Position numbers and translations under genes: made by a program. The notes under the pieces are model-generated. The model was not told the origin of the DNA, searched no databases, and was given only the letters and a program-made list of their open reading frames with translations. A DNA stretch of 64,000 nt, from assembly GCA_011525805.1 (NCBI GenBank), contig WYBR01000083.1:1-64000 (forward strand), read 5' to 3'. Below are positions 15,324 to 35,860 of this stretch, in pieces. Position 1 is the first letter of the stretch. Every line of letters starts with the position of its first letter. Source of the DNA: Vicinamibacteraceae bacterium (GTDB lineage: Bacteria; Planctomycetota; Phycisphaerae; Phycisphaerales; UBA5793).

Positions 15324-16123
15324 GCCTCTGGCCGGCCAAACCCCTCGCGGATCACCTTCCCTGCGCCTCATGCGCCTACGACCTGCACGGCCTCAAGCCG
15401 TGCGGCCTGTGCCCCGAGTGCGGCTGGCCGATTGAGAAGACGCTCGAAGCGGGCGGGCTGGACTACAAGTGGCTGGTCGCGATCCACTCCGGCGTGCAGG
15501 CGCTGCTCGTGGCGCACTACGTGCTGCTCGGCTCGGCGGTGATGTGCTTTCTGCTGCCCGTTGGGCTTTGCTTCTACGTCATCCTCATCCTCGGCGGCGC
15601 GGTGGAGCTCGGCACGCCGCATCCCGAGGCGCCGCCCTCCGACACGCGATCGAGGCGGCCGGCGCAGGTTCTGGGAGGCGGGATGATGGCGGGCATCCTC
15701 GGCGCGATTCTTCTCCTCGGCGCGCCGTTCCTCGGGGCGGCGATCATCGTGCTCGGCGTCGGCGCGATGGGGGTGGGAAACGCGATGCTCTGGCGGCACT
15801 TCGCGGCATTGATGCTCCAGCGCTTCAGCCCGGCCGCGGGGCACAGCGGACGCGCCGTGGCCTGGGCGCATGGGCTCATCGTCGCGACTCTGGCGCTCGC
15901 CGCCGGGCTGGCGCTCTGGCCCGACCCGAACTTCGGCGGCGCCCAGGTGGGGCCGGCGCTCGCGATGTTCGCGGTCCTCCTCTGGGGCATCTGCGCCATC
16001 GCCGCCCTGATCACGCTGCACACGGCCAGCAAAGCCCTGCGCCAGGCAATGGGCGACTCCCGTCCGCTTGAGCCGGCCGCCGAGCCGCGGGTGGTGGAGG
16101 AGAACGCGCGGCCGATCCGATAG
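15320..16123 (+). CDS. Zinc-ribbon membrane protein of unknown function
   Basis: A 267-residue protein starting inside the ribBA stop. The N-terminus carries two cysteine pairs, CASC and CPEC (about residues 14-39), forming a zinc ribbon with the YDL signature of this group. About five membrane helices follow (such as VMCFLLPVGLCFYVILILGG, MMAGILGAILLLGAPFLG, ALAMFAVLLWGICAIAALI). Three more genes of this type lie at 21-23 kb, with the ribbon at either end of the chain. The ribbon probably faces the cytoplasm. No function is known to me. Confidence 0.82.
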   Translation: MSLWPAKPLADHLPCASCAYDLHGLKPCGLCPECGWPIEKTLEAGGLDYKWLVAIHSGVQALLVAHYVLLGSAVMCFLLPVGLCFYVILILGGAVELGTPHPEAPPSDTRSRRPAQVLGGGMMAGILGAILLLGAPFLGAAIIVLGVGAMGVGNAMLWRHFAALMLQRFSPAAGHSGRAVAWAHGLIVATLALAAGLALWPDPNFGGAQVGPALAMFAVLLWGICAIAALITLHTASKALRQAMGDSRPLEPAAEPRVVEENARPIR

Positions 16124-16130
16124 TTTCACC

Positions 16131-17855: not shown

Positions 17856-19429
17856 CGAAACGTGCGGCCGGAGGTATCAAAACTCTCCGCGCCGCCGCGC
17901 AGTGCCCACGCCGCGGCCATGATGTCGAATTGCAGCGCCGCGACTTCGTCGCTCCAGGGGCAGAGAGGCGCGACCACTGCGGCATACTCGGGCAGAAACC
18001 GCTCGATCAGCCAGGCGCGTTCGAGCATGGTGGCGCTCGGCGCGGCGGAGGGCGCGGTAAGAACCGCCTGAGCCGCTTGCGCGTCGCCGGCTGCGAGAAG
18101 CGCCGCCAGCGCCGCAAGGCGGTGGCGCGCTTCACCGGCTTCGAGCACACGCCACGCATACCCCGGCAGCGCGGTCTCCCGCTCACCCTCCATCAGCAGC
18201 GCCAGTCGCGCATGGACGCGGAATGACTCATCGTGACTGCCGGCGTAGGACTGCCGGATCGGCTCGATCGATTCGCCAATCAGCGCGAGAAGCATGGCTC
18301 CGGCGGACCGGACTTCATCTGAATCGCGTGCCATCCACTCCCGACCGCGGCGAGCCGCCGCTTCGCGCGTGAGCAACCGCTCCGCGAGCAGGACGGCGGC
18401 CCAGACGCTGCCGTCTTCCGCGACGGGATCTTCGAGCAGCCGGTCCGGATCTCCCTGACCGTGGCGCCACGCCGACCATCGGGCGAGGGCTGCGTCCTCG
18501 GTAAAGTCGATCGGACCTCCCAGCCAGGCCCGCTGCGGGGCGGGCAGTTGTTCAATGCCTACGCCCCACCGCTGAGCGAGGTGAAGGGCCGCGGCGCGGT
18601 GCCCGTCGATCGCGAGCGCTTCGAGTCTCTGCCGCGCCGCTTCGTCATCGCTGCGTGAGAGCAGCCACGGCAGTGCCGTGGTCGGCCAGGGCGACTGGTC
18701 GCAGGCCATAAGCAGCGCCGAGGCGTCGAGCGGATTCGTCGCCGTCGCCGCCCACAGCATTGCCTCGGCCACGCGCGGCTCCTCTCCCTGCCACACGGCG
18801 GCGTACCCCGACGCCGGACTCAAGTGTCCGAGCAGGAGCCAGGCCAGTCGGCGCACCCGCGGATCATCGTCATCGCGCGCCGCCGCTGCGAGCGCTTCGA
18901 TGGCGTCGGCGTCAAACCATCCCGCGGCCTGGCGCAGCGCGCCTAGCCGAATTGATGCATCATGCGGCCAAGCGAGAAGTCGCCCCCACAATTGGCCGGC
19001 GTTGGCGTCATCGCGCAAGACCTCGGCCGCCGCCAGTTCGTCGAGAACAGTTCGCGCCGCCTCGCCATCCTGGGAATCGAGGATGAGATCGAGCCGCCGC
19101 CGCCAGAGGTTCGTCGAAATCGTGGGCAACTGCCACAACCCCGCCTCCCGCAGCAGCGCAGCGACGTCGATGAACGTCGCCTGATCTTCGGTCGATTCGA
19201 GGCGGGCGAAGATGCGCGTCGAGCACGACGGCCATCGTCCGATGCGCGGCGGCGGGGCGCCGGCCGGTTGCTCGCTCCACCAGAAGACGGCGCGGCTCCG
19301 CTGCTCTGCCACATCGCTGAACAGCCGCCGCAGCATCCACTCGCGTTCGACGGTCGGCCAGAGGAGGGCGCCGATCGCCGCGCCCAGCAGCAGCGCTGCA
19401 CCGAAACCGAGAAGCCGTCGGCGCCTCAT
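17825..19429 (-). CDS. Membrane-anchored HEAT-like helical repeat protein, unknown function
   Basis: A 534-residue protein. The N-terminus is basic then hydrophobic (MRRRRLLGFGAALLLGAAIGALLW), a signal anchor or signal peptide; the rest is rich in Ala, Leu and Glu with repeated paired-helix patterns (such as DDDDPRVRRLAWLLLGHL and SDEVRSAGAMLLALIGES) like HEAT/armadillo repeats. No catalytic motif is visible. The start ATG overlaps the stop of the upstream amidotransferase-like gene (ATGA), so the two are coupled. The 3' end overlaps the convergent glycosyltransferase fusion by 31 bases. A longer upstream reading of this frame is antisense-like and antedates the signal sequence, so 19429 is preferred. 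Confidence 0.8.
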   Translation of the reverse strand: MRRRRLLGFGAALLLGAAIGALLWPTVEREWMLRRLFSDVAEQRSRAVFWWSEQPAGAPPPRIGRWPSCSTRIFARLESTEDQATFIDVAALLREAGLWQLPTISTNLWRRRLDLILDSQDGEAARTVLDELAAAEVLRDDANAGQLWGRLLAWPHDASIRLGALRQAAGWFDADAIEALAAAARDDDDPRVRRLAWLLLGHLSPASGYAAVWQGEEPRVAEAMLWAATATNPLDASALLMACDQSPWPTTALPWLLSRSDDEAARQRLEALAIDGHRAAALHLAQRWGVGIEQLPAPQRAWLGGPIDFTEDAALARWSAWRHGQGDPDRLLEDPVAEDGSVWAAVLLAERLLTREAAARRGREWMARDSDEVRSAGAMLLALIGESIEPIRQSYAGSHDESFRVHARLALLMEGERETALPGYAWRVLEAGEARHRLAALAALLAAGDAQAAQAVLTAPSAAPSATMLERAWLIERFLPEYAAVVAPLCPWSDEVAALQFDIMAAAWALRGGAESFDTSGRTFRYTAAATPPR

Positions 19430-20157
19430 GAGCAGCGCCGCAGCACGGCAGGCAACAGGTAGTCGGCGATGCACCGGCACAGGCGCTCGCTGAGGCGCTC
19501 GAAGTCGGGCATCCACCGGCGGGTCGCGGCCAGGAGTTCCTCGTCGGACAGGCCGGCGGCGCGTCGCTGCGCGGATCGGGCCTGCGACCAGCGCTCGACC
19601 GCGGCGGCGTCGGCTTCGACGTGCGCCTGGAAGCCGTAGGTCCGGATCCCCGCTCGCCACGCGAGGGAGCGGCACGCCGCCGATCCCGCCAGCGGCGCGG
19701 CGCCCGCCGGCAACTTGGTCACCTGCTCGCTCTGCCAGACCAGCATCATTGAGCGCCACGGCTGGCCGGTCAGGACGGGATCGATCGTGCCGGGGAACGT
19801 CAGTCGGCCCTCGCGCCAGCCGACCTCGACCTTTCCCCCTTCCAGAGGCGCGATCAAGCCGCCAAGCGCCGCGGCGAGGATCAGGCTGCCCGTCCCGAGA
19901 CCGACGACCGGCAGTTCGCGCTCGTGCGCCGCCTTGAGCAGCGCGGCCTCCGACCCGCGCCACGCCTGCCGGGTAAGGTCGGCGAGCGCGACCGGCGCGT
20001 CGAGACACACCACCGCTTCGACGTCGTCGAGGTCGGGCGGAAGCGCTTCGCCGGCCCAGAGGCGCCGCACGTTGAGACGGTGGCCGTACTGGACGAGCAC
20101 ACGGCCGAGCCGGCCTGGCCCGCACTGCTCATCATGTTCAAAAACGAGGATGCTCAT
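19426..20157 (-). CDS. Class I glutamine-amidotransferase-like protein lacking the catalytic cysteine
   Basis: A 243-residue protein with the fold outline of GMP-synthase-type amidotransferases: ILVFEHDEQCGPGRLGRVL at the start, a VVCLDAP stretch in the place of the usual glycine-rich GGP motif, and YGFQAHVEAD matching the His-x-Glu of the triad. Where the nucleophile elbow should read G-x-C-x-G, it has GLGTGSLILA, so the cysteine is replaced by glycine. It is therefore probably not a glutaminase; it may bind a metabolite or regulate its partner. It is translationally coupled to the following helical-repeat membrane protein. A different Cys (EQCGPG) is present but is in the wrong place. Confidence 0.82.
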   Translation of the reverse strand: MSILVFEHDEQCGPGRLGRVLVQYGHRLNVRRLWAGEALPPDLDDVEAVVCLDAPVALADLTRQAWRGSEAALLKAAHERELPVVGLGTGSLILAAALGGLIAPLEGGKVEVGWREGRLTFPGTIDPVLTGQPWRSMMLVWQSEQVTKLPAGAAPLAGSAACRSLAWRAGIRTYGFQAHVEADAAAVERWSQARSAQRRAAGLSDEELLAATRRWMPDFERLSERLCRCIADYLLPAVLRRCS

Positions 20158-20325
20158 GGCGCCCCTTCCGCATAAGTGCCGCGGCGCAGCGTACCGCCCT
20201 CACCCCCCGCCGGCAAGCGCCGCGGCGGCGCCGGGCTGAACCGCCGCCGCAGCCCTCCTATCGTTGAGACCCACGGATCGACCCGTTCATCACGGTTCAA
20301 CACGAGGACAGAAAGGATCACCCCA

Positions 20326-21021
20326 ATGAAGACTCGCAACTGGCTGATTTCGGCGGCCGCCGGCGCTCTCTGCACGGGCGCCATGGCCGGAGTCGCGCTT
20401 CTCGACGCTGTCGACTATTCCGTCATCCCCGTTCCCTTCTCGCGCATCCACAACACGCTGACGAGCAGCGGCGCCAGCCTCGCCCGCGCGATCGAAGTCG
20501 CCCAGGAAGCGACGGGCGGCGTCGCCACCAGCGCCAGCGTCGACCTGCTCGGCAAGGAGACGCTCTTTCAGGTGAACACCTACACCGCCGAAAGCGGCTG
20601 GACCGTCATCATCAATGCCGACGGTTCCATCAAGGAGAAGAAGGAACTCGCCGACGTCCCGGGTGAGAAGGTGACCGGCGACTGGGTCGTGCTCGACTCG
20701 GGCCTGCGCTACTTTGAACTCAAGGAAGGCGAAGGTCCGCAACCGCCGAGCAACACCGCCATGGTCAAGGTCCACTACACCGGTTGGACGGTGGACGGCA
20801 AGAAGTTCGACAGCAGCGTCGATCGCGGCGAGCCGGCCGTCTTCCCCCTCAACGGCGTCATCGCCGGCTGGACCGAGGGCGTCGGCTCCATGAAGGTGGG
20901 CGGCAAGCGCAAACTCATCATCCCCTACAAACTCGCCTACGGCGAATACGGCCGCCCCGGCGCCATCCCCCAGCGCGCCACGCTCATCTTCGACGTCGAA
21001 CTGATCGAAATCGTCGAGTGA
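20326..21021 (+). CDS. Exported FKBP-type peptidyl-prolyl isomerase
   Basis: A 231-residue protein with a signal sequence (ISAAAGALCTGAMAG) and a C-terminal FKBP domain of about 100 residues: AMVKVHYTGWTVDGKKFDSS, GEPAVFPLNGVIAGWTEGV, MKVGGKRKLIIPYKLAYGE and TLIFDVELIEI, all core FKBP motifs with the active-site Tyr, Phe, Ile and Trp. The region between (about 25-110) is not the usual dimerisation domain of FkpA and looks like a small domain with repeated VNTYTAESGWTVIINADG character. It should catalyse proline isomerisation in the periplasm. AAAGGA lies before the ATG. A long hairpin follows. Confidence 0.92.
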   Translation: MKTRNWLISAAAGALCTGAMAGVALLDAVDYSVIPVPFSRIHNTLTSSGASLARAIEVAQEATGGVATSASVDLLGKETLFQVNTYTAESGWTVIINADGSIKEKKELADVPGEKVTGDWVVLDSGLRYFELKEGEGPQPPSNTAMVKVHYTGWTVDGKKFDSSVDRGEPAVFPLNGVIAGWTEGVGSMKVGGKRKLIIPYKLAYGEYGRPGAIPQRATLIFDVELIEIVE

Positions 21022-21076
21022 CCCGGTCGTACGGGCGTCCCGGTGGCACGGCCCTCCGCCTGTACAAGTCAACCAT

Positions 21077-21116
21077 AACGCAACGCCGCGAGCCGCGCCT
21101 CGCGGCGTTGTGCGTT
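21077..21116 (+). terminator. Long hairpin downstream of the FKBP gene
   Basis: AACGCAACGCCGCGAG (21077-21092) pairs with CTCGCGGCGTTGTGCGTT (21099-21116) with one 2-base bulge and a 6-base loop. No T-run follows, so termination is inferred from position and stem strength alone. Confidence 0.5.
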
Positions 21117-21200
21117 ACCGCCATCGCGCCCTGCGGGATCCTGACGCGCCTGCGGCGCCGACAACGGATTCTCGCCCGCGCGGCGGCAGAGCGCGCAAAG

Positions 21201-21222
21201 CCCCGGCACTCCTGTGCCGGGG
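21201..21222. repeat. Short perfect palindrome
   Basis: CCCCGGCAC-TCCT-GTGCCGGGG, a 9-bp stem and 4-base loop, isolated in the intergenic region. It resembles a REP-type unit. Confidence 0.55.
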
Positions 21223-21334
21223 ATGATCGACCGCCTCATGAAGTGCGTCGCGGTCCCATGGTACAATCCCGCGCGGCGCCCTTCGCAATGTGCTACGGTG
21301 TTGGCTAAGTCGCAGCCGTAGGAGAAGCACGCGC

Positions 21335-21817
21335 ATGCCCAGGCTGCAGCAGGATCAGCAAGTGACGACGAGCCGCGCGCAGGAACTCCTGCTCGAGTTT
21401 CTGCGCGAGCACGACGCCGCCTGCCCCGTCTGCGGCTACAACGTGCGGGCGCTCACAAGGCCGATCTGTCCCGAGTGCCGGCACGATCTGGTGCTCACCG
21501 TCGGCGCGGCGCAGCCGCCCATCGGGTGGCTGCTCGCCGCCGTCGCGCCGGGTTTCTTCTCCGGCATCGCGGCACTCTTCATGCTCGTGCCGATCATCGG
21601 GCGGGCCATCTTCGGCGACGGCGTGTGGATGCCGCTGGCGATCATCGTCGATCTCTTCGGCTGGTGCAGCGGACTTTTCGCAATTCTCCTCGCAACGAAG
21701 CGCCGCCGCTTTCTCGCCCAGCGGCGAGCGCGGCAGCGATGGCTCGCGTTGACGATCTGGCTCATCCACGTCGCAGCGCTGGGCGTGTTCATCCTCATGG
21801 CGGTGTTGTTCTTCTGA
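21335..21817 (+). CDS. Zinc-ribbon membrane protein, unknown function
   Basis: A 160-residue protein. An N-terminal zinc ribbon (CPVCGYNVRAL then CPECRHDL, about residues 32-55) precedes about four membrane helices, including LLAAVAPGFFSGIAALFMLV and LALTIWLIHVAALGVFILMA, with a very basic cytoplasmic loop (KRRRFLAQRRARQR). The start at 21335 has AGGAGA about 9 bases upstream. It belongs to the same group as the genes at 15320, 21918 and 22401. Function unknown. Confidence 0.82.
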   Translation: MPRLQQDQQVTTSRAQELLLEFLREHDAACPVCGYNVRALTRPICPECRHDLVLTVGAAQPPIGWLLAAVAPGFFSGIAALFMLVPIIGRAIFGDGVWMPLAIIVDLFGWCSGLFAILLATKRRRFLAQRRARQRWLALTIWLIHVAALGVFILMAVLFF

Positions 21818-21917
21818 AGTTCGCGACGGGTGTTCCGGTCAGCGCGTAGCCCAACTGCCGGGCCTGCGCCGAGCCTTGTCCCGACCTACCACTCGCGCGG
21901 CGTGATATGATCGCTTG

Positions 21918-22391
21918 ATGCGACGCAGACTGCGAAGCACGTGCAAGTGGGGCGGGACGGTGCTGACCGTGCTGCTGTTTGTGGTGTGGGTGGGGAGCGC
22001 GTGGTGGTGGTACAATTTCATTCCCAGAAGCGCCTCTTATGCGATGGCGATCGAACGCGGTACACTCGCAGTCGAATGGGTGACGCCCGCTCCAACATTG
22101 CCTGACAGATACCTCGGCTGGCATACGGGCTGGAGTAGGCCGTTTCGATTGATGTGGTGGTTTCGCGGTGAGAGCGGAACGGTCGTTCGCGGGGGTACCG
22201 CTACTGAGGTAGTAGTGCCGCTGTGGTTTGGAGCGATGATCTTCGGCCTCCCGACGATCATCCTCTGGTACCGCGACCGTCGCCGCGCGCCGGGCCTGTG
22301 CATCAAGTGCGGCTACGACCTGCGCGGGGCGGATCACAAGGTGTGCCCGGAGTGCGGGGCGACGCCGCTGCCGAGTCGAACGACGTCATAG
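21918..22391 (+). CDS. Membrane protein with C-terminal zinc ribbon, unknown function
   Basis: A 157-residue protein with one N-terminal membrane helix (VLTVLLFVVWVGSAWWWY), a soluble middle of about 70 residues, a second helix (PLWFGAMIFGLPTIILWY) and a basic link to a C-terminal zinc ribbon CIKCGYDLRGADHKVCPECG. The middle part would be outside the membrane and the ribbon in the cytoplasm. It lies 9 bases before a longer relative with the same architecture, suggesting a tandem pair. No function recognised. Confidence 0.8.
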   Translation: MRRRLRSTCKWGGTVLTVLLFVVWVGSAWWWYNFIPRSASYAMAIERGTLAVEWVTPAPTLPDRYLGWHTGWSRPFRLMWWFRGESGTVVRGGTATEVVVPLWFGAMIFGLPTIILWYRDRRRAPGLCIKCGYDLRGADHKVCPECGATPLPSRTTS

Positions 22392-22400
22392 GATCACCCG

Positions 22401-23177
22401 ATGCGACGAGCAGAATCATCCGGCGCGCTCGGCAGGTTCGGCGGGCGGATCATCATCTGCCTCATCCTCGGGGCGGTGCTGCAGTATCTCGTGGCCGCGG
22501 GATTCGGGTTAGGCAATTCGTACGGTGAGCCCGATCGAGAATGGATCCTTGGAATCTCAGATCATGGCCAAACCACGAGGCTCTTGCTGAGCCGACATCG
22601 TGCGATCGGCAGAGAAGTTCTCGTGGGCGAAGGCTGGGCCACGCACCGCGGTTACGGTGCCACATGGGTCTCCGATGGGGAGCCGGACTGGAGACGGGGC
22701 GAGTGGCTTGAGTCTCAATTGGCGGGCGAACTGTTGAAACCTCCCAGGAACGACCTACCGCGCACTCCTCCCTCGTGGTCGCGATTCGCAAGGATCACGA
22801 GAGATCCGACCTTTGACGAATACGCCCCACCACGTTTTGGGATTTGCATCGAAGTCGGATGTGGCTGGCCCATCCGCAGTGCTTCATACTTTGCAGGAGA
22901 GCCGATCGGGGGCGGTTCACTTGTAGTGCGTGAAGGCATTGTGGTCTCAAAGGCCGCGCCTGCACCAGGGCTCTTGCCGCGCGTCATTCCGCTCACCGTG
23001 CATTGGCCCGGAGCGATTATGAACACTCTTGTGTACGCTGCTGTGCTGTTTGTGCCATTCAACCTCGGGCAGCTGATGCGCGCTCGACTGCGCCGACGCG
23101 CGGGGCGATGCGTGGTGTGCGGCTACGACCTTCGCAGCAACGTGAGTGGGGTGTGCCCCGAATGTGGGAACGGTTGA
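22401..23177 (+). CDS. Membrane protein with C-terminal zinc ribbon, unknown function (paralogue)
   Basis: A 258-residue protein: N-terminal membrane helix (IIICLILGAVLQYLVAAGFG), about 160 residues of soluble, Trp- and Arg-rich domain, a second helix (IMNTLVYAAVLFVPFNLGQL), a basic stretch and a C-terminal zinc ribbon CVVCGYDLRSNVSGVCPECG. It shares this layout with the preceding gene. It is last in the plus-strand pair, followed by an 8-bp tandem repeat. Confidence 0.8.
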   Translation: MRRAESSGALGRFGGRIIICLILGAVLQYLVAAGFGLGNSYGEPDREWILGISDHGQTTRLLLSRHRAIGREVLVGEGWATHRGYGATWVSDGEPDWRRGEWLESQLAGELLKPPRNDLPRTPPSWSRFARITRDPTFDEYAPPRFGICIEVGCGWPIRSASYFAGEPIGGGSLVVREGIVVSKAAPAPGLLPRVIPLTVHWPGAIMNTLVYAAVLFVPFNLGQLMRARLRRRAGRCVVCGYDLRSNVSGVCPECGNG

Positions 23178-23350: not shown

Positions 23351-25036
23351 TCACGTCGCGGCGGCGTGCATCACTTCGCGCACCGTCGTGATGCCCGCGC
23401 GGGCCTTGGCGAGGCCGTCTTCGATGAGGCGGATGAGAAGGTTGTCCTTCTTCGCCCGCTCGGTGATGCGGGCGGCGTTTTCGTGAGCCATGATCATCTC
23501 GCGGATGTCGTTGCTCACGGTGAAGAGCTCGAAGATGCCCACGCGGCCGCGGAATCCTGTGCCCCGGCACTCGCGGCAGCCCGCGGTCTCATGCCATGTC
23601 GCGGGCAGATCGGGCGCCCCCTTGGGAAGCGGGGCCTCCGGCGTCTCGACGGGGCGCTTGCAATGGCTGCACAAGCGGCGCACGAGGCGCTGGGCGAGCA
23701 CACCTTCGAGCGAACTGGCGACGAGATAAGGCTCGACGCCCATGTCGAGCAGGCGAGTCGTCGCGCTCGGAGCGTCGTTGGTGTGCAGCGTGGAAAAGAC
23801 GAGGTGGCCGGTGAGGGATGCCTGGATCGCGGCATCGGCCGTTTCCTTGTCGCGAATCTCGCCGACCATGATCACATCGGGGTCGTGTCGGAGAATGGCG
23901 CGCAGGCCAGCGGCGAAGGTCAGGCCGATCTTGTGGTTCACCGGAATCTGATTCACGCCCGACAGGTTGTACTCGACGGGGTCTTCGACGGTGACGGCCT
24001 TGATCTCCTCCGAAACGATGCGGTTGAGCGAGGCGTAGAGCGTCGTCGACTTGCCCGATCCGGTCGGCCCGGTGACGAGGAGGATGCCGTGCGGCCGGGC
24101 GATCAACTGGTCCCAGGCGGTGAGAATCTGCTCCGTCATGCCCAGCGAATCGAGGCCGAAGCGCACCGACGTCTTGTCGAGAATGCGCAGCACGACGCCT
24201 TCGCCGAAGATCATGGGGATGATCGAAACGCGCAGGTCATACTCGTTGCCCTTGTGCCGCAGGTTGATGCGGCCGTCCTGCGGCTTGCGTTTCTCGGCGA
24301 TGTTGAGGTTCGCCATGATCTTGACGCGGCTGATGATGGCGTTGCGGAAGCGCCGGATCGACGCCGACATGGAGGGCTTGTAGAGCACGCCGTCCACGCG
24401 GTAGCGGATGTCGAGACTGCCTTCGTAAGGCTCGATGTGAATGTCGGTGGCGCGCTCGGAGATCGCCTCGATGAGCAGGTCGTTGACGAGTTTGATGACC
24501 GAGGCCTGCTGGGCCTGCTCGAGTTCGTTCTTGGTCTCGTCGTCGGCGGCCGCGAGTCGGGCCTGCTCGTCGAGGTTGAACTCGGCCGACGAGGCGAGTG
24601 CATCAAGCGTGTCGCCGGCCACGCCGTAGTGCTCGCGGATGAAACTGTGCAGATCATCCTCGTCGGCGAGGACGAGTTCGATGGAGGTGCCCGTGAGGAG
24701 TCGAAGTTCGTCGAAGGCGGAGAGTTCGAATGGGTCGGATGTAGCGACGCGCAGCGTGCCGTTGGAGCGGCTGATGGGAACGCAGTTCTGCTTGTAGACG
24801 AGTTTGGCGGGGAGGGTGCCGAGGACGTCGGCGTCGGGCTCGATCTCGGAGAGATCGACGATGGGCATGTCAAACTGGTCGCCAATCGCCTTGAGCACGT
24901 CGCCCTGGCCGCAATAGCCCAGGCGCACGAGGGTGCGGTCGAGCCGCTCGCCCGTCTCCTTCTGAAGCGCGAGGGCATCCTCGAGTTGCTCGCGGGTGAT
25001 GACGCCCCGCTCGACGAGTATGCTGCCGATTCCCAC
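23351..25036 (-). CDS. GspE/PilB-type secretion or pilus assembly ATPase
   Basis: A 561-residue hexameric ATPase for type IV pilus extension or type II secretion. Residues 1-130 form a GspE/MshE-type N-terminal domain (ILVERGVITREQLEDALALQ, FDMPIVDL). The motor has an Asp box (DIHIEPYEGSLDIRYRVDG), Walker A (GPTGSGKSTTLYASL), Walker B (DPDVIMVGEIRDKETAD) and the His box (GHLVFSTLHTNDA). Near the C-terminus two cysteine pairs (CSHC and CREC) give the zinc site of this family. The start is a GTG without an obvious ribosome binding site. No pilin, inner-membrane platform or prepilin peptidase gene is adjacent; the only secretin in the window is 8-12 kb away and fused to an ABC exporter, so a link is speculative. 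Confidence 0.92.
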   Translation of the reverse strand: MGIGSILVERGVITREQLEDALALQKETGERLDRTLVRLGYCGQGDVLKAIGDQFDMPIVDLSEIEPDADVLGTLPAKLVYKQNCVPISRSNGTLRVATSDPFELSAFDELRLLTGTSIELVLADEDDLHSFIREHYGVAGDTLDALASSAEFNLDEQARLAAADDETKNELEQAQQASVIKLVNDLLIEAISERATDIHIEPYEGSLDIRYRVDGVLYKPSMSASIRRFRNAIISRVKIMANLNIAEKRKPQDGRINLRHKGNEYDLRVSIIPMIFGEGVVLRILDKTSVRFGLDSLGMTEQILTAWDQLIARPHGILLVTGPTGSGKSTTLYASLNRIVSEEIKAVTVEDPVEYNLSGVNQIPVNHKIGLTFAAGLRAILRHDPDVIMVGEIRDKETADAAIQASLTGHLVFSTLHTNDAPSATTRLLDMGVEPYLVASSLEGVLAQRLVRRLCSHCKRPVETPEAPLPKGAPDLPATWHETAGCRECRGTGFRGRVGIFELFTVSNDIREMIMAHENAARITERAKKDNLLIRLIEDGLAKARAGITTVREVMHAAAT

Positions 25037-25179
25037 GAACGATTGTACCGCCCAGGAGCGGCGGAGGATTCACCTCAAAACGCCCCGATTCGCGCCGGAC
25101 GCCGGGGCGGAGACTCTGCACCGCCCCGGACTCGGCGCGGCAATCGCCCGCAAACGTGATCGCCTCGTCCGATCGCCCC

Positions 25180-26081: not shown

Positions 26082-29000
26082 TCAGTCGCCTTCATCGTAC
26101 CACCCCTCGGCCTGCGACCGCACGGCCGCCCGGGCGGGCTCGGCTTCGCGCTGCGATGGCTGGCTCACCCCGAGGCTCTCAAGGATGAACTCGCGTGTGC
26201 TGCGCGAGTAGTGGCGGTTGAAGATCCCGTGGCGGAAGCCGGGGTAAATCATCAACTCGAAGTCCTTGTCTGCGTCCTGCAAAGCCTTGACAAGGCGGAT
26301 GGTGTTCTGCATGTGGACATTGTCGTCCATCGAGCCGTGAACGAGGCGCAGCCGGCCGTGCAGGTTGCCGGCGGCCTCGATGACGGAAGTCGCGCTGTAG
26401 CCCTCGGGGTTGTCCTGCGGCGTGCTCATGTAGCGCTCGGTGTAGATGGTGTCGTACTCGCGCCAGTCGGTCGGCGGCGCGCCGGCGATTCCGCAGCAGA
26501 AGAGTTTGCTGTGGGTCATGGCGAAGGCGGTCATGAAGCCGCCGTAACTGTGCCCCGTCATACCCACGCGCGACCCGTCGACATACGGCTTGTCGGCGAG
26601 CCAGCTGATGACGTCTTCAATGTCGCGGAGTTCGGGCACGCCGAGTTGGCGATACGCCGTCCACGCCGAGACGGCGCCGCGCCCGCTCGCTGAGCGCGGG
26701 TCGCTCTTGGCGATGATGATGCCCTCGTTCGCCAGGGCCTGGTCGCGCGTGCGCCCGCCCCCCCACCGATCGGAGATCGTCGGCGCGTGCGGCCCCGCGT
26801 AGGTCGTGAACCAGACGGGATACCGGCGACTCGGATCGAAGTCGGACGGGTAGAGAATGAGCGCATCGAGCGGATAGCCGTCTCGCGCCGAGATGACGAC
26901 GCGCTCCTCGCGACCGAGTTTCCATTCCTCGAGCACGTAGACGGGGTTGGAGTCGATGACGCGCAGCAAGCGGCCGTCAGTCGCGTCGCGCAACTCGACG
27001 CGCGGCGTCTGTGTGAGGCTCGACCACGAGTCGATGAAGTATCGGCCGTCCGGGCTGATGGAGACGCTGTGGGACCCTTGCCCATTGGTGAGGCGCGTGA
27101 CACCGCCGTCAGTCATGCTGATGCGGTAGAGGTCGGAGCCGAGGTGGTTGTCGCGCGTGCCGGAGATGAAGATGAGGTTGTTCTTCTCATCGAGGCGCTC
27201 GATGCGCCTCGCCTCCCACTCGCCGGAAGTGACCGGGCCGATCTCCGCGGCGTCCTTGTCGTAGCGGTACCAGTGCTCCCAGCCGGTTCGTTCGCTGGTG
27301 AGCAGGAAACCGCCGTCGTCGAGGAATCGCGGCGAGCCGGGCGAGGTGATCCACGCCTGCGTCTGGTCGCGCCACAGCCTCGTCAGGGTTCCGCCGCCGG
27401 CCGGCGCCCGGCAGGCATCCAGCCACGTCTGGATGCGGTTCTGCACGTAAAAGTAGATCGTCTCGCTGTCGGGCCACCAGCCGACGTGCGAGATGAGGCG
27501 GTCGTGCTCGTCGTAGCCTGAGAGATCGACCCACTGCACGTCGCCGCCCGCGGCCGTCACAGTGCCGAGGCGAACGACGGGATTGGGTTGGCCCGGCTTG
27601 GGATAGCGAGCCACTTCCACGATCTGGTCGTAGACGTGATCGCCGACGATGGTGAACTCGGGGACCGTGGAGGAGTCGGTCTCGAGGAAGGCGATGCGCG
27701 AGGAATCGGGGCTCCACCAGTAGGCGTTCCACCGCCGCCCGAAGAGTTCCTCGAAGTAGACCCAGTCGGCCTTGCCGCGGCGCAAGGTGTCGCTGCCGCC
27801 GGTGGTCAGCGCCCGCTCGGTCGCCGTCTGCACGTCAACGACGAAGAGATCGTTGTCGCGGACGAAGGAGACGAAGCGCCCGTCGGGGCTGAACTGCGCG
27901 AGTTCCTCCGGCTGAGGCGTGCTCGTCAGGCGCCGAGCCGCGGACCCGTCCGCCGCGACGTAGTAGAGATCGTTTTCATGGTTGAAGAACGCGCCGGTGC
28001 GGCCGGAGTCCATGCTCGATCCCGCGCGATTGGCCAGGCTGCGCGCCGTGCGCCGATCGATGGGGGCGAGCGTCTCAAGCGCGGCCGCGAGGGGACCGGT
28101 ATCGAGTTCCGGCGGCGCCTCGTAGGGCTCCGAGCGGCCGCTGAGGGCGTGAACCTTGCGCAGCTGCCCGCCCTTGTTCACGAGGTAGTGCTCCTCATCG
28201 AGCCAGCGCGAGACGTTGACGGCGCTGCCGCTGAAGTTCGGCAGTCCGCGGCGCGACTCGAGGCGATCTTCCGTGATGACCTGCCCGAACGTGCGATCGT
28301 CGTCGAGGGGCCGGTGCGGGACGGTGAGCAGAGGCTCATCGTCGCCGGGGAGCCGCACGATCGGATAGTCCTCCCCCTCGCTCAGCCCGGTTACCAGACC
28401 CCAGAGCGCCAGCCCGTCCTCGCCCTGCGATTCGAGCAGGTAGGCCGCAAGGCGGCCGAGCGGCTGATCGGTGCGGACGACGAGCGTGCCGGCGGGAACA
28501 CCCATCATCCCCGATCGCCGTTCGATCTCCAGCATCGACGCGCTGCGGTTCTGGAATGGGCGCGCTGATTGGCGCAGCGAAACGACGCGATCGACTTCGA
28601 CGTTCAATTCGATGTCCTCGCGCAGTTCGAGGACCGCGACGCCGTGCCACTGAAGATTGTGAACGACGTCGCGCTGCGAGGCGGGGATGAGGTACGCGGC
28701 GGGCAAGGGGACTTCGAGCGCCGCTTCGAACCGATCGACGAGGTCGACTTCATACTCGCGAGGCTGGTCGGTGGGGCGCCGGCGGTCGCCATCCTGCTCC
28801 TCGACGAAGCCGAGAATCTTCACTTTGTCCGGCCGGGCCGCGGCCCGGCTGCGCAGCGCGATGGTCTCGCCCGGCCTTCGGCGCGAGGCGGCCTCGTCCG
28901 CCCGCTTGAGCAGCGCCTGCACCTCTTCGCGATGGTCGCGCAGGTCGCGCAGGCACTGCCGCACAAACTCGAGCGTGCCCAGCACGCGGTCCTTGTAGGG

Positions 29001-29909
29001 CGCGTAGGAGTACGCCTCGGAGAGGATGCTCAATCGATGCCGCAGGCCGAAGTAGGTCGTGCCGTAGCGCGCCTCGGCCGGGAACGTCTCCCACCTCGTC
29101 TTCTCGCGATCGAAGTTGCCGTAGAAGAAGGACTCGTACCCGGTCCGCTCGCGCAGCGCGGCGGAAATGCGCGGCATCATCGCGTCGTGCGCGTAGTCGA
29201 GGATCGAGGAATCGCCCGCGGGCGACTTCGGGCCGGCGTAGGTGATCAGGTAGCGGTGATACGAGCCGTTGGTGGTGTGCGTGTCGATGAAGACGTGCGG
29301 ATCCCACTGCCGCATGAAGCGGACCAGCGCGCGCGTCTCCGGGGCGTCCAATTTGACGAAATCGCGGTTGAGATCGAGCCCTTGCGCGTTGGGTCGCTCG
29401 CCCATGCCTTGCTCAGGTCCAACCTGTCCCGGGCGATTGTCCGGGCTCATCTTCTCGTTGCCGTCCGCGTTGTAGATCGGCACGAAGCAAAGGACGAGGT
29501 GCTCGAGCAGACTGCGATCTTCGCCCGCGAGAATGTCGCGCGCCAGCATGAGCAGCGCCTCCTTGCCGGCCACCTCTCCAGCGTGAATGTTGCCGAGGAG
29601 AAGAACGACGAGTTTGCCCGATTCCTTTGCCTCATCCGCCGAGCGCACCGCCGGTTCGGCCAGGACGAGCACCGGGATGGACCGGCCTTCGACCGTCGCC
29701 CCGAGTTCCACGCGGTACGCCAGCGGCGACGCCTCGGCCAGGGCGTTCATCATCGATACCACGTCGTCGTACTTCGACGTGGCCTTCCATTCGCTCGCCT
29801 CCGCGACGGTCCGGAGGTGGTGGACGCCATCATCCTGCCGGCCGGCGGCGGCGGGGCAGAGCGCGAGCAAGGCGGTCAGAACGGCTGATACGAGACAGCG
29901 ACGAAGCAT
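26082..29909 (-). CDS. Secreted bifunctional protease: M14 carboxypeptidase fused to S9 dipeptidyl/prolyl peptidase
   Basis: A 1275-residue exported protein; GGAGG precedes the ATG and a signal peptide (LVSAVLTALLALCPAAAG) follows. Residues about 30-330 are an M14 zinc carboxypeptidase: NIHAGEVAGKEA (His and Glu ligands), GLDLNRDFVKLDAPETRA, DTHTTNGS (His ligand) and LSEAYSYA with the catalytic Glu. A linker domain (about 330-590) follows. Residues about 620-1000 are a DPP IV-type beta-propeller (FSPDGRFVSFVRDNDLFVVD, WNAYWWSPDSSRIAFLETD). The end is an alpha/beta hydrolase of family S9: GMTGHSYGGF (Ser), MDDNVHM (Asp) and YPGFRHGIF (His). Both active sites look complete. It probably degrades peptides from both ends outside the cytoplasm. 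No operon partner is evident. Confidence 0.9.
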   Translation of the reverse strand: MLRRCLVSAVLTALLALCPAAAGRQDDGVHHLRTVAEASEWKATSKYDDVVSMMNALAEASPLAYRVELGATVEGRSIPVLVLAEPAVRSADEAKESGKLVVLLLGNIHAGEVAGKEALLMLARDILAGEDRSLLEHLVLCFVPIYNADGNEKMSPDNRPGQVGPEQGMGERPNAQGLDLNRDFVKLDAPETRALVRFMRQWDPHVFIDTHTTNGSYHRYLITYAGPKSPAGDSSILDYAHDAMMPRISAALRERTGYESFFYGNFDREKTRWETFPAEARYGTTYFGLRHRLSILSEAYSYAPYKDRVLGTLEFVRQCLRDLRDHREEVQALLKRADEAASRRRPGETIALRSRAAARPDKVKILGFVEEQDGDRRRPTDQPREYEVDLVDRFEAALEVPLPAAYLIPASQRDVVHNLQWHGVAVLELREDIELNVEVDRVVSLRQSARPFQNRSASMLEIERRSGMMGVPAGTLVVRTDQPLGRLAAYLLESQGEDGLALWGLVTGLSEGEDYPIVRLPGDDEPLLTVPHRPLDDDRTFGQVITEDRLESRRGLPNFSGSAVNVSRWLDEEHYLVNKGGQLRKVHALSGRSEPYEAPPELDTGPLAAALETLAPIDRRTARSLANRAGSSMDSGRTGAFFNHENDLYYVAADGSAARRLTSTPQPEELAQFSPDGRFVSFVRDNDLFVVDVQTATERALTTGGSDTLRRGKADWVYFEELFGRRWNAYWWSPDSSRIAFLETDSSTVPEFTIVGDHVYDQIVEVARYPKPGQPNPVVRLGTVTAAGGDVQWVDLSGYDEHDRLISHVGWWPDSETIYFYVQNRIQTWLDACRAPAGGGTLTRLWRDQTQAWITSPGSPRFLDDGGFLLTSERTGWEHWYRYDKDAAEIGPVTSGEWEARRIERLDEKNNLIFISGTRDNHLGSDLYRISMTDGGVTRLTNGQGSHSVSISPDGRYFIDSWSSLTQTPRVELRDATDGRLLRVIDSNPVYVLEEWKLGREERVVISARDGYPLDALILYPSDFDPSRRYPVWFTTYAGPHAPTISDRWGGGRTRDQALANEGIIIAKSDPRSASGRGAVSAWTAYRQLGVPELRDIEDVISWLADKPYVDGSRVGMTGHSYGGFMTAFAMTHSKLFCCGIAGAPPTDWREYDTIYTERYMSTPQDNPEGYSATSVIEAAGNLHGRLRLVHGSMDDNVHMQNTIRLVKALQDADKDFELMIYPGFRHGIFNRHYSRSTREFILESLGVSQPSQREAEPARAAVRSQAEGWYDEGD

Positions 29910-30006
29910 GGCGACCCTCCGAAACAGGGCGAAACTCAACGCCGGACCCAACGATCATCGCCTTCGCTCCCACTCGGTCAACGCCGGGCTGCGGGCGAAG
30001 GCCGCC

Positions 30007-31135: not shown

Positions 31136-34100
31136 ATGGCGAGCGAGGAGACGAAACCGGTTGACGCGAGTGGCGGCCGCCTCGCCGATGTGCTTCGTCC
31201 GCACTCGCGGCGCCTCGGACTGGTCGTCGGGCTGCTGGCGATGCTCGTCGCGACCAACCTCGTGCTGCCCTACTCCGTCAAACTCCTCATCGACGACGTC
31301 TTCCCCCACGACGACGGATCGGGCGGCAACTGGGGGCTCCTCTGGCTCATCCTCCCTCTCCTCGGGATGATCTTCGTCATCCGCAACGCCCTCTTCTACC
31401 CCAGCCGCATGCTCGCGGTGCGCGTCAGCGAGGACGTGTGCTTCTCGATGCGCCAGCGGCTGTTCGAGTATCTCCAGCAGTTGAATCTCCGCTTCTACAA
31501 GGCGCAGCAGCCGGGCAAAGTCGGCTCGCGCCTCCTCGACGACACCTTCAAGATCCAGTTCTTCATCCAGGACAAACTCCCCACGCTGCTGCTCAACCTC
31601 CTGCTGGCGCAGGTGCTGCTGATCATCCTCTACGCGGTGAACTGGCGATTGGCGCTGGCGAGTTCGCTCGTCCTGCCGCTGCACTTCGGAACCTACTGGT
31701 TCTTCAGGCGGCCGATCAAGCGTCGGCACTCGGAGGCGCAGGAGAACGTGGCGGCCGCGTACGGGAACGTGGTCGAGAAGTTCCTCGGCATGGAGGTGGT
31801 CAAGGGCTTCACCGGCGAGGCGCGGGAGAAGGCCCGCTTCCACAGCGCCATCGACGCCAGCCGCCACAGCCAGATCGGCACGCAGCGCTACGAGTTCATG
31901 CAGAAGGTCGTCGCCGACCTCTTCGTTGGCGCGGGGACCGTCTTTCTCTTCGGCTTCGGCGCCTGGCAGGTCATGCAGGGGCACATGAGCGGCGGGACCT
32001 TCATCATGTTCTTCGGGTACGTCGGAATGCTCTACCCCGCCATGCAGGAAGTCATCAGCGGCACCAGCCACCTCTCCAAAACCACCGCCTGCGTGGACCG
32101 AGTCTTCGAGATGCTCCAGCAGCCCGGCGCCGAGTCCGACCCCGCGCCGCCCGCCGGGGGTGCGGCGGACGTGCCCATCCTCGGCGCCGTCGAGTTTCGC
32201 AACGTCTCCTTCGCCTATGGCCACGGGCGGACGATCCTCAAGAACGTCGGCCTCTCGATCCGTGCGGGCGAGCGCGTCGCGATCACCGGCCCGAGCGGCT
32301 CGGGCAAGAGCACGCTGCTCAACCTCCTTCCGCGGTTCATCGATCCCACGGCGGGAGAGGTGCTCATTGACGGCCACGACGTGCGCTCGATTCCGATCAG
32401 CCGCCTTCGCAGCGCCATCGGCATCGCGTTCCAGGAGGTCTTCCTCTTTGACGCCTCGATCTCGGAGAACCTGCGGTACGCCCGGCCGGACGCGACGCTC
32501 GAGGAACTTGCCGACGTGTGCCGCCTCACCGGCGCCGACCGGTTCATCGAGAAGCGCGCCGACGGGTACGACTCGCGCATTGGCCCGTACGGCAGCGACC
32601 TGTCGCGCGGCGAGCGGCAGCGCATCAACATCGCCCGCGCCCTGCTCAAGAGCCCGCTCGTGCTGGTGCTGGACGAGGCCGCCGCGTCGATCGACAACAA
32701 GTCCTCCGTCGCCGTCATGCGAGCCATCTTCAAACGCTTGCGAAATCGGACGATCATCATGATCACCCACAAGCCGGAACTGCTTCAACTTGCCGATCGG
32801 GTGGTGGTGATCCGCGAGGGGCGCGTGGAGTTCGACGGCCCGCCGACCGAGTACACCCTGCTCGACCTCAAGGAAACGCCGCTTGCCGGATTCCGGCCTC
32901 CCGAGACCGCGGGCAAGGCGCCGCTTCGACTGGTCAATCCCGTGCGCGAGGCCGAGCCGCCGGCGACCACGATCCCGCAGCCGGCGGCGGCCGCCACGAC
33001 CGAGACGCCCCCTTCCGCGCCTGAGCCGACCCCGGAGGAAGTCGTGGCGAATCGAGGCCGCACGCGGACAATCGCCACGGCGCTGCTGGTGCTCGCGGGC
33101 GCGTCGCTGCTCGGGCCGCCCGCGTGCGTCTCCGAGAGCCGATCGACTCGCTCCTACGGCGTCGAGTCGGCGCGCGCCAGCGGAGGCCTGCTGATTGCCG
33201 ACGCGGGCGATGACCAGGCTGGACAACTCCGAGCCGCCATCGAAGCAAGTGAACTTCGCAGCGCCGCACTCGCTCCGCATCTGCGGTCCGCGGGCGGAGG
33301 GTTCGCTCCCGATCGCGAACAGATCGAGTTCGCCGGGGAGGTGCTCGGCGGCGCTGTGCGCGGGGAGGGCGGCCGAGCCGCACCGGTGGAGCGAAGCGAA
33401 CCCGCCGCGCAGGAGCCCGTCCCCGTCGGGTCGCCGCTCCCGCCGGATTCCGGACGGCTGATCGCCCTGCCGAAACTCGGCGCAACGGAACTCCGCGAGG
33501 CGATCCACAGCCTTGCCCTCAGCGCTGCGACGGAGCAAGGCTACCAGCGGGTCGAACCGGAAGCGGTCGTGGGGCTTCCGACCTTTCCCGAGGAGATCAA
33601 CGAACTTGCCGTCCTTCGCCGCCGCGACGACTCCGGCGCGGAGGCGGTGCTGTGCCTGGGCTATCGCACGTTCCTGTCCCAGCCACCGCAGGTGTGGGTG
33701 GTGAGCCTTCAGCGCACCGGCCTCAACGCGCCCTGGGTCGCCGGAGGTGATCTACCCCTCGTGCAATCGCGCGTCGAGGCGCTGGTCGCGGGTCTCACGG
33801 CGATGCGATCGAACCTCACCCATGAAGACCTCTCTCGCTCCGTCGTGCAACTCAGTTACATCGACGGCCCCGGTGCGATCGGCGCCCTTCAGGGACTGGG
33901 CGTGAGCGTCATCGCCGACGCGGCGCAGGTTCCGCAGTCGATCGAGTACGCCCGGCTCCCCCTCGTGATCCTCATGCCGACGCCGACGGCGGAGCAGACG
34001 GGTCTGGTGGGAGATGCGGGGCCGGCGGTGCGCGGCAACTTCGGCAACACGATGCTCCCCAACACCGCCACGCCGCTGGCGCCCAACCCCGTCACCTCTC

Positions 34101-35860
34101 CGTCCTCGCGCCTCCTGGTGCTCTATCACCCCGCCAACCCGGGCCAACTCGCCCGCGTGCGCAATCTTCTGAGCGACTACATCGATCGACCCGCCCGGCA
34201 GATCTTCGTCGAGGGCATGGTGCTGGAGATCAGCGAAGACGGGCTCAAGGATCTGGGCATCGAGTGGCAGTTCCGCGAGGGACCGATCGACCTGATTCTC
34301 GGCAAACTCACCGCGGGCGGCGCCATCGATTCGCTCACGTTCTCCAACGTCGATTCGCGCGATGTGCCGCTGGACTGGTCGGTGCGCATTCGCGCCCTGG
34401 TGCGCGAGGGCAAGGCGGAGATCCTCTCGCGCCCCGGCGTGCTCACCATTGACAACCGACAGGCGACCATCCGCGTCGGCGAGGACATCCCCATCGCCAC
34501 CAGCCAGGAGGGAACCTCGGTCGGCTCGAACAAACTCTCCTTCAACTTCCAGTACATCCCGACGGGCATCCTCCTCAACGTCCGGCCGCGAATCACCGAG
34601 CAGGCCGACGAGATCAGCATGCTCATCGACACGATCGTCTCGGCGGTGGTGCCGGGGCGCGACCTGGAGATCCGGTCCAGCGACGGCGAACTGCTCGCCA
34701 CCGCCCCCACGATCTCGACCCGACGCGTGCAGACCTACGCCCGCATCGACAACAACACGCCCTTCATCATCGGCGGCCTGGTGAGCCGCGACCTCACGGT
34801 CACGCGCGACAAGATTCCCCTGCTTGGCGACCTGCCCTTCGTGGGCATCTTCTTCCGCGCCGAGCGGACGGAGCGCACCAAGCGCGAGGTGATCATCGTC
34901 CTCACTCCCTATGTCCTGCCCGAGGAGTCTTATACGGCCGGCGTGATTCCCAGGGACGACGACCTGTTCGACTCCTTCGGCAATCAACTCTTCCGCGAGT
35001 CGTACCGGATTCGCGCGGAAGACGTTTTCGACCTGCGGTTCCTTCCCGAGAACCGCCGCATCGTGGCCTACAGCGACCTGGCGTCGAAGGTCGTGCGGCG
35101 CGACGCCCGCCTCGCCGAGGCCCTCCCCTTCCGCGACTTCGTTCGCGGCCGCATTCCCGGCGAGGACATCCTGGTCCACCGGATGATCTACGAAGTGATC
35201 AAGCGCCTCGACGTGAAAGGCCAGCAATACGACCTGCCCAAACTCATCGCCGCTGACCGCATCATCTTCCTCGAGTCCGAGCAGTTCGGCGGCTACAGCG
35301 TTCAGTTCATGGAGCGCGTCATGTCGCGCTTCGGCGGCGGCGCTGATTACGCCTCCTTCTTCAAGAACAAGCGCGACAAGGCCCTCGCGTTCACGTTTCA
35401 CTACGATCGCGAGTCGGACGATCCGCTTCACCTCGCCACCGAGCCCATTCCCGAGGTCGCCATCTACGACTGTCCCGATCGCAAGGCGTGGGGCCGGCTC
35501 CTGTGGGAACTGAACCAGCCCGGCCCGGACGGGCGCAAGCGCTTCAGCATCGTGCTCAACGACGAATCCGACCTGACTCGCCTGCGCCGGGCGATCATGC
35601 TCAAGAAGGTCATTGCCGCCAATGGTGGCGCAGAACAGGTTTCGCTGGCGAACTTCAGCGTCGGCAAGGTGCTGATGATGCCCGAGACGAAGGAAGGGCA
35701 GACGCACATCCTCGACGCCGACGTCGCCCGCCTCTTCTTCCACACCGAGCACTACTACTCGGCGGCGATCCAGGTGATCGAGCAGCGCCTTGCTGAACTC
35801 GACGCCGCGCTGCGCACGCCGGAGATCGGGCCCCTGCTCGACGGGGCCGAACTGCCGTGA
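31136..35860 (+). CDS. ABC exporter and secretin in one continuous frame
   Basis: A single open frame of 1574 codons. Residues about 20-310 are a type-1 ABC exporter membrane domain (LGLVVGLLAMLVATNLVLP, FYKAQQPGKVGSRLLDD, FLGMEVVKGFTGEAREK). Residues about 345-580 are its nucleotide-binding domain: Walker A GPSGSGKST, signature DLSRGERQR (Arg in place of the usual second Gly), Walker B LVLVLDEAAASID and H-loop ITHK. A Pro/Ala/Thr-rich linker leads to an internal GTG (codon 637), a hydrophobic stretch, about 350 residues of periplasmic type, then a secretin core (about 1020-1265: QIFVEGMVLEIS, RPGVLTIDNRQATIRVGEDI, IPLLGDLPFVGIFFRAERTE, REVIIVLTPYVL) and a 310-residue unknown tail. ABC exporters and secretins are normally separate proteins in different membranes. 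Either a true fusion joined by a transmembrane segment exists, or the secretin is made separately from the internal start. Upstream start codons exist; 31136 best fits the exporter family. Confidence 0.85.
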   Translation: MASEETKPVDASGGRLADVLRPHSRRLGLVVGLLAMLVATNLVLPYSVKLLIDDVFPHDDGSGGNWGLLWLILPLLGMIFVIRNALFYPSRMLAVRVSEDVCFSMRQRLFEYLQQLNLRFYKAQQPGKVGSRLLDDTFKIQFFIQDKLPTLLLNLLLAQVLLIILYAVNWRLALASSLVLPLHFGTYWFFRRPIKRRHSEAQENVAAAYGNVVEKFLGMEVVKGFTGEAREKARFHSAIDASRHSQIGTQRYEFMQKVVADLFVGAGTVFLFGFGAWQVMQGHMSGGTFIMFFGYVGMLYPAMQEVISGTSHLSKTTACVDRVFEMLQQPGAESDPAPPAGGAADVPILGAVEFRNVSFAYGHGRTILKNVGLSIRAGERVAITGPSGSGKSTLLNLLPRFIDPTAGEVLIDGHDVRSIPISRLRSAIGIAFQEVFLFDASISENLRYARPDATLEELADVCRLTGADRFIEKRADGYDSRIGPYGSDLSRGERQRINIARALLKSPLVLVLDEAAASIDNKSSVAVMRAIFKRLRNRTIIMITHKPELLQLADRVVVIREGRVEFDGPPTEYTLLDLKETPLAGFRPPETAGKAPLRLVNPVREAEPPATTIPQPAAAATTETPPSAPEPTPEEVVANRGRTRTIATALLVLAGASLLGPPACVSESRSTRSYGVESARASGGLLIADAGDDQAGQLRAAIEASELRSAALAPHLRSAGGGFAPDREQIEFAGEVLGGAVRGEGGRAAPVERSEPAAQEPVPVGSPLPPDSGRLIALPKLGATELREAIHSLALSAATEQGYQRVEPEAVVGLPTFPEEINELAVLRRRDDSGAEAVLCLGYRTFLSQPPQVWVVSLQRTGLNAPWVAGGDLPLVQSRVEALVAGLTAMRSNLTHEDLSRSVVQLSYIDGPGAIGALQGLGVSVIADAAQVPQSIEYARLPLVILMPTPTAEQTGLVGDAGPAVRGNFGNTMLPNTATPLAPNPVTSPSSRLLVLYHPANPGQLARVRNLLSDYIDRPARQIFVEGMVLEISEDGLKDLGIEWQFREGPIDLILGKLTAGGAIDSLTFSNVDSRDVPLDWSVRIRALVREGKAEILSRPGVLTIDNRQATIRVGEDIPIATSQEGTSVGSNKLSFNFQYIPTGILLNVRPRITEQADEISMLIDTIVSAVVPGRDLEIRSSDGELLATAPTISTRRVQTYARIDNNTPFIIGGLVSRDLTVTRDKIPLLGDLPFVGIFFRAERTERTKREVIIVLTPYVLPEESYTAGVIPRDDDLFDSFGNQLFRESYRIRAEDVFDLRFLPENRRIVAYSDLASKVVRRDARLAEALPFRDFVRGRIPGEDILVHRMIYEVIKRLDVKGQQYDLPKLIAADRIIFLESEQFGGYSVQFMERVMSRFGGGADYASFFKNKRDKALAFTFHYDRESDDPLHLATEPIPEVAIYDCPDRKAWGRLLWELNQPGPDGRKRFSIVLNDESDLTRLRRAIMLKKVIAANGGAEQVSLANFSVGKVLMMPETKEGQTHILDADVARLFFHTEHYYSAAIQVIEQRLAELDAALRTPEIGPLLDGAELP
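33034..33046 (+). promoter_or_regulatory. Internal Shine-Dalgarno and GTG start within the ABC-secretin frame
   Basis: GGAGGA (33034-33039) is followed after four bases by GTG (33044-33046) in the reading frame. The next codons give ANRGRTR, then a hydrophobic run and a Cys at position 28, the layout of an export signal. This supports separate initiation of the secretin half. Confidence 0.65.
33044..35860 (+). CDS. Secretin (outer-membrane channel) as a possible separate product
   Basis: Reading from the internal GTG gives a 938-residue protein. Residues 2-8 are basic (ANRGRTR), 9-24 hydrophobic, with PPAC at 25-28: a signal peptide, possibly a lipoprotein one although the -3 residue is Pro rather than the usual Leu. 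Residues about 30-385 include two N-domain-like segments (LLVLYHPANPGQLARVRNLL). The secretin core lies at about 385-630 with the GspD/PilQ signatures noted for the fused frame. Residues 630-938 (GQQYDLPKLIAADRIIFLE, FHYDRESDDPLHLATEPIPE, KKVIAANGGAEQVSLANF) match nothing I recognise. Secretins form gated rings through which pili, phage or type II substrates pass. No pilotin is seen. Confidence 0.6.
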   Translation: MANRGRTRTIATALLVLAGASLLGPPACVSESRSTRSYGVESARASGGLLIADAGDDQAGQLRAAIEASELRSAALAPHLRSAGGGFAPDREQIEFAGEVLGGAVRGEGGRAAPVERSEPAAQEPVPVGSPLPPDSGRLIALPKLGATELREAIHSLALSAATEQGYQRVEPEAVVGLPTFPEEINELAVLRRRDDSGAEAVLCLGYRTFLSQPPQVWVVSLQRTGLNAPWVAGGDLPLVQSRVEALVAGLTAMRSNLTHEDLSRSVVQLSYIDGPGAIGALQGLGVSVIADAAQVPQSIEYARLPLVILMPTPTAEQTGLVGDAGPAVRGNFGNTMLPNTATPLAPNPVTSPSSRLLVLYHPANPGQLARVRNLLSDYIDRPARQIFVEGMVLEISEDGLKDLGIEWQFREGPIDLILGKLTAGGAIDSLTFSNVDSRDVPLDWSVRIRALVREGKAEILSRPGVLTIDNRQATIRVGEDIPIATSQEGTSVGSNKLSFNFQYIPTGILLNVRPRITEQADEISMLIDTIVSAVVPGRDLEIRSSDGELLATAPTISTRRVQTYARIDNNTPFIIGGLVSRDLTVTRDKIPLLGDLPFVGIFFRAERTERTKREVIIVLTPYVLPEESYTAGVIPRDDDLFDSFGNQLFRESYRIRAEDVFDLRFLPENRRIVAYSDLASKVVRRDARLAEALPFRDFVRGRIPGEDILVHRMIYEVIKRLDVKGQQYDLPKLIAADRIIFLESEQFGGYSVQFMERVMSRFGGGADYASFFKNKRDKALAFTFHYDRESDDPLHLATEPIPEVAIYDCPDRKAWGRLLWELNQPGPDGRKRFSIVLNDESDLTRLRRAIMLKKVIAANGGAEQVSLANFSVGKVLMMPETKEGQTHILDADVARLFFHTEHYYSAAIQVIEQRLAELDAALRTPEIGPLLDGAELP

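Follow-up and report, generated by a model that had tools for sequence, protein, structure and literature searches.

A conserved ABC exporter-secretin polyprotein with a signal-peptide-like joint in Phycisphaerales-like bacteria

An ABC exporter and a secretin in one frame

The window, the 64,000-nucleotide stretch of DNA that we analyzed, carries on its forward (+) strand a single frame of 1574 codons closed by a TGA stop (31136 to 35860); all coordinates of its parts given below are on the same strand. Profile searches placed three Pfam domains in this frame, each with a score far above its curated cutoff. The first half holds an ABC_membrane transmembrane domain (PF00664, E value of 1e-34, 121 bits; residues 29 to 299, 31220 to 32032) and an ABC_tran nucleotide-binding domain (PF00005, 2.4e-30, 106 bits; residues 368 to 516, 32237 to 32683). 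The ATPase motifs GPSGSGKST, LSRGE, and LVLDEA and the downstream THK are intact in the translation. Having both domains in one chain with intact motifs, this half is a type-1 (ABCB-like) ABC exporter. The second half holds a GspD-like secretin barrel domain (PF00263, 3.9e-40; residues 1087 to 1261, 34394 to 34918), and its 137.7 bits against a cutoff of 27.5 place it in the secretin superfamily.

Between the two halves lies a stop-free linker rich in Pro, Ala, and Thr (32885 to 33079) that is weakly constrained but coding, as judged from dN/dS and stop counts. It runs into a segment resembling an internal signal peptide (33050 to 33127), which consists of a basic n-region, NRGRTRT, a hydrophobic core, and the residues PPA-Cys, with the Cys codon at 33125 to 33127. 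Shortly before this segment is a possible internal start (33034 to 33046), made up of GGAGGA (33034 to 33039), the four bases AGTC, and a GTG at 33044 to 33046 (codon 637). A sequence-only reading of this DNA had described a complete type-1 ABC exporter running into a secretin in one stop-free frame of 1574 residues, with GGAGGA, four bases, GTG, and a basic and hydrophobic segment ending in PPAC at the joint. We confirmed the coordinates, length, and TGA stop of the frame and both kinds of domain, and we located every element of the joint between 33034 and 33127.

The secretin half is 926 amino acids long, and its AlphaFold model (pLDDT of 70) begins with about 115 low-confidence residues. 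These are followed in the model by a helix-grip-like domain that is predicted to be periplasmic (33431 to 33814; VIA-align Z score of about 7). It may have an arrangement like that of the BamC N domain, or the likeness may reflect only a common arrangement. Next is a predicted ring-building, N3-like domain (33827 to 34195) that resembles the XcpQ/GspD N domain (4ec5; VIA-align Z score of 6.8, 2.0 Å over 61 residues). We found no Pfam match to Secretin_N or N0 in the window protein, and the model contains one N3-like domain. In sequence, the secretin is closest to GspD (PDB GspD 6hcg, 3.7e-24), and a Foldseek search with the secretin half also returned GspD (E value of 1.3e-13).

The frame ends in a C-terminal domain (35003 to 35857) that the alignment shows to be common to all members of the family, with 18 invariant columns. 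Folded alone, it was modeled by AF2 with a pLDDT of 91.6. Against the PDB, it gave no Foldseek match under an E value of 0.001 and a best VIA-align Z score of 3.1. We did not retain the idea of a new fold, for which a missing PDB match and a best Z score of 3.1 are no evidence. A search of PHROGs returned no match for the two nonbarrel parts of the secretin half.

Distribution, origin, and neighborhood of the fusion

We searched 121 genomes of the same order (Phycisphaerales-like), 199 genomes drawn from the phylum, and 198 drawn from the class. The secretin half was found in 33 of the 121 genomes of the order, in 14/198 of the class sample, and in 4/199 of the phylum sample, where three of the four belong to the window's order. 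Both halves lie in one stop-free frame in 25 of the 33 secretin-bearing genomes (the window's genome and 24 others), which represent six families and 16 genera and include the one-contig genomes G030, G048, and G054. In four others, the two are separate adjacent genes in the same order, either overlapping by 1 to 4 bases (G112 and G091) or in tandem (G072 and G108). The order is reversed in one genome (G023), the secretin stands alone in two (G018 and G038), and in one (G041) the locus is cut by contig ends. That this is a real fusion, as the sequence-only reading had proposed, is thus borne out by its relatives, in which the two are by no means always separate genes.

One of the 25, the two-contig assembly G005, is frameshifted within the ABC half, at residue 321/322 (L060:8761-8763), possibly through a sequencing indel. 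This genome, and the 138 contigs of the assembly from which the window comes, might raise the suspicion that the frame is an assembly or sequencing artifact created by a lost stop or a frameshift. Its recurrence in independent assemblies, the one-contig genomes among them, refutes that explanation, to which we assign practically no weight. The polyprotein is real, conserved, and unusual.

Orthologues of the ABC half were present in 28/101 genomes, and all 28 have the secretin. The secretin occurs without a nearby ABC gene in G018, G038, and G462. Because the ABC orthologues are found only with the secretin and the secretin is sometimes found without them, the ABC exporter appears to depend on the secretin and not the reverse. 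The secretin may therefore have a role of its own.

In a tree of the secretin part, the two main clades each contain fused rows, and separate genes nest within them. When outgroups of the same class were included, another family of the class (f87) branched first, and there the ABC and secretin are separate neighboring genes, in tandem and in that order. The adjacency is therefore older than the fusion. The simplest account is that the genes were first in tandem, underwent a single fusion in the main family's ancestor, and later split several times; the fusion is conserved, and in the order it is probably the ancestral state. Repeated fusion may have taken place instead, given a long outgroup branch (2.39) and a second tree that came from a quick search. 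The outgroup f87 also has a DUF1571 (LolA-like) gene directly upstream of its separate ABC and secretin genes (L123:12547-13563, -; L124:135-1148, +). As a clue to a lipid carrier, we set this gene aside; none of the 43 genomes searched in the window's order yielded a member of its family.

An all-against-all comparison of the open reading frames around 32 loci revealed no conserved neighbor beyond the ABC exporter and the secretin; the other neighbors have turned over while this pair stayed together. Among the loci compared, no cargo gene, adaptor, or pilotin was linked to the fusion.

The joint and the making of two proteins

We found that the joint is most likely translated. Over 1513 codons of linker and signal, the reading frame contains no stop, while the +1 and +2 frames contain 41 and 38, respectively. 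In close pairs where it could be computed, linker dN/dS was 0.26 to 0.59, compared with 0.02 to 0.16 for the ABC half and the secretin body. The linker thus changes fast between close relatives yet is constrained. Its length, signal included, varies from about 15 to 88 codons, and it is in frame in all 25 genomes.

A hydrophobic core follows the linker in 25/25 fusions and is mostly preceded by a basic stretch. The core terminates in Gly/Ala/Ser-Cys in the 12 rows of the window's clade and in an Ala-x-Ala-type site, often with Gln-Asp after it, in the 13 rows of the sister clade. The N-terminal signal peptides of the unfused homologues align with this segment and are of the same two types, namely, Cys-type signals (LSAC, AVGC, and VAGC in G023, G091, and G112, respectively) and Ala-x-Ala-type signals (VWA-D, VMA-D, and AIA-Q in G072, G108, and G018). 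By a simple motif rule, all 25 joints have a lipobox-like or signal peptidase I-like site, compared with 36 of 110 transmembrane controls from the ABC half (Fisher P value of 8e-11, which overstates the case because related genomes were counted as independent). A third of the controls match the loose signal peptidase I motif by chance; the Cys rule is sharper (12/25 joints versus 1/110 controls). Positions -3 and -2 of the window's lipobox, P-P-A-C, are atypical. These patterns suggest candidate cleavage sites at the joint.

Since no stop follows the ABC half, each ABC chain is synthesized fused to the secretin, and an ABC product free of secretin needs cutting. The sequence-only reading had offered two possibilities, a tethered fusion and a second product from an internal start; the fusion itself stands, and the signal-like joint favors a third reading, a cleaved polyprotein, over both. 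Initiation at GTG 33044 would yield a free secretin lipoprotein alongside the fused chain. In the window, the Shine-Dalgarno (SD) duplex of this start is strong (-9.5, a value reached by 0.7% of 1533 internal in-frame ATG/GTG codons), and it lies just before the basic and hydrophobic segment; G021 has an ATG with a duplex of -7.7, and G001 has a GTG with one of -6.3. The arrangement is strong in the window genome only. The nearest GTG in the congeners G002 to G004 has a weak duplex (-2.9 to -3.5), most other relatives are weaker, and in the fused G009, G027, and G057 the 32 codons leading up to the hydrophobic core contain no ATG, GTG, or TTG. Because the start is not conserved among fused relatives and three of them lack a start codon, internal initiation cannot be the shared mechanism, and we rejected it as a general device. 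Even if it is used, the ABC half is still made only as a fusion. We consider it highly improbable as the explanation of the frame, though it may add some free secretin in the window species. A permanent tether, in which the hydrophobic segment stays uncleaved as a seventh transmembrane helix, each secretin subunit remains joined to an ABC subunit, and the secretin ring is itself ringed by ABC dimers, fits the long linkers kept in frame in 25 genomes and the atypical PPAC of the window. Against it are the signal peptidase-like sites at every joint and the alignment of the segment with true N-terminal signals. A site also persisted when the class of signal changed between the clades, something a simple membrane anchor would not need, and several fissions into separate genes indicate that a tether is not required. 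We therefore think a tether quite unlikely. Given that N-terminal signals of unfused secretins are homologous to this segment, and that sites are present in 25/25 fusions, the cleaved polyprotein is a better reading than either a permanent tether or a second start.

A further alternative concerns function. One transcript could simply coexpress an ABC exporter with an orphan secretin, each with a function unrelated to the other's. The genomes with a secretin alone (G018, G038, and G462) are consistent with this, as is the lack of cargo or partner genes at the loci compared. The exclusive association of the ABC orthologues with the secretin (28/28) argues against it, as do an adjacency that predates the fusion and the retention of the pair while all other neighbors turned over. 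We regard two unrelated functions as unlikely.

Our preferred reading is a polyprotein with an internal signal peptide that is cleaved into a 1:1 pair of ABC exporter and secretin serving one export route, to which we assign a probability of roughly two in three. According to this model, one precursor would comprise the ABC exporter half (six membrane helices and a cytoplasmic ATPase), the flexible linker, and the internal signal peptide, which would send the downstream secretin through the Sec pathway. The signal would end in Cys like a lipoprotein signal (signal peptidase II type) in the window's clade and in an Ala-x-Ala site (signal peptidase I type) in the sister clade. Cleavage at the signal, the most likely course, would free the 1:1 pair. 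The ABC exporter would then remain in the inner membrane with the linker and signal helix still attached, and the secretin, a predicted ring former, would be periplasmic or assemble in the outer membrane. We infer that both halves would serve one route across both membranes, the ABC exporter bringing a cargo, from the cytoplasm or the inner membrane, to a space in the periplasm that the secretin gates and so to the outside. Joint export is plausible, and a continuous ABC-secretin protein suggests that the two are produced jointly in order to carry something through both membranes.

Relation to known systems

Secretins are known from type II and type III secretion, type IV pili, and filamentous phages, and ABC exporters work with TolC-type channels through adaptors. 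In Bradyrhizobium, the cytochrome b/c1 precursor FbcH is an example of a membrane protein and an exported protein that are synthesized as a single chain, with an internal signal peptide, and then cleaved apart. The fusion follows the same one-chain logic, with one frame, a membrane half, a signal-like joint, and an exported half; its cleavage is predicted. Unlike the fusion, FbcH gives rise to a respiratory complex and not to a transporter-channel pair.

A type I secretion system consists of an ABC exporter, a membrane fusion protein (MFP) beside it, and a TolC-type channel (PMC4793230). The fusion resembles such a system in pairing a type-1 ABC exporter with a predicted outer-membrane channel. 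It differs in that the linked channel is a secretin, both parts are in one polypeptide, and no MFP gene is conserved beside the ABC part. The secretin half is most like GspD of type II secretion, but we found no conserved GspC/E/F/G partners or pseudopilins at the locus. It also differs from GspD in the absence of N0 and Secretin_N Pfam matches, in its extra C-terminal domain, and in its production together with an ABC exporter. MsbA/TIGR02204-like exporters were among the ABC families that scored best against the first half; to these the fusion adds a C-terminal linker, signal, and secretin. Because all the family scores were under their curated cutoffs, no substrate can be read from them.

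A review of tripartite efflux and type I systems describes no ABC-secretin fusion in the text searched (PMC8277102), and a limited literature search, which covered planctomycete secretins as well, found no description of a conserved, ancestral, covalent pairing of the two. Judged by its locus, the architecture fits neither type I nor type II systems, and its function is put forward as an inference. Tentatively, and with somewhat less confidence than an even bet would imply, we propose a trans-envelope exporter with two components, an ABC ATPase and a dedicated secretin that it feeds, and with no MFP adaptor, TolC, or pseudopilus; both components would come from a single polyprotein cut by signal peptidase. 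If both halves work together, this would be a new coupling of ATP-driven export to an outer-membrane pore. Should they not cooperate, the gene is still a clear, testable case of a bacterial membrane polyprotein with an internal signal peptide, the type of which (lipoprotein or signal peptidase I) changed during evolution.

The window genome holds further secretins, one of which adjoins a T2SSK gene, and the fusion secretin is therefore unlikely to be the general type II channel. An MshEN/T2SSE ATPase gene lies about 6 kb from the fusion on the opposite strand (window 23354 to 25069, -), and smaller T2SSE or T2SSE-like genes near the fusion recur only in G030 and G042. Elsewhere, at about 15000 to 22700 of G000:C121 (L071:2-7624:+), we noted a secretin frame of 3765 amino acids with 24 Secretin_N stretches before the Secretin domain, far more than usual. 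Another long frame in the window (26085 to 29951, -; 1289 amino acids) combines an M14 zinc carboxypeptidase with a DPP IV propeller and an S9 peptidase, and the same long frame is present in G001 and G002.
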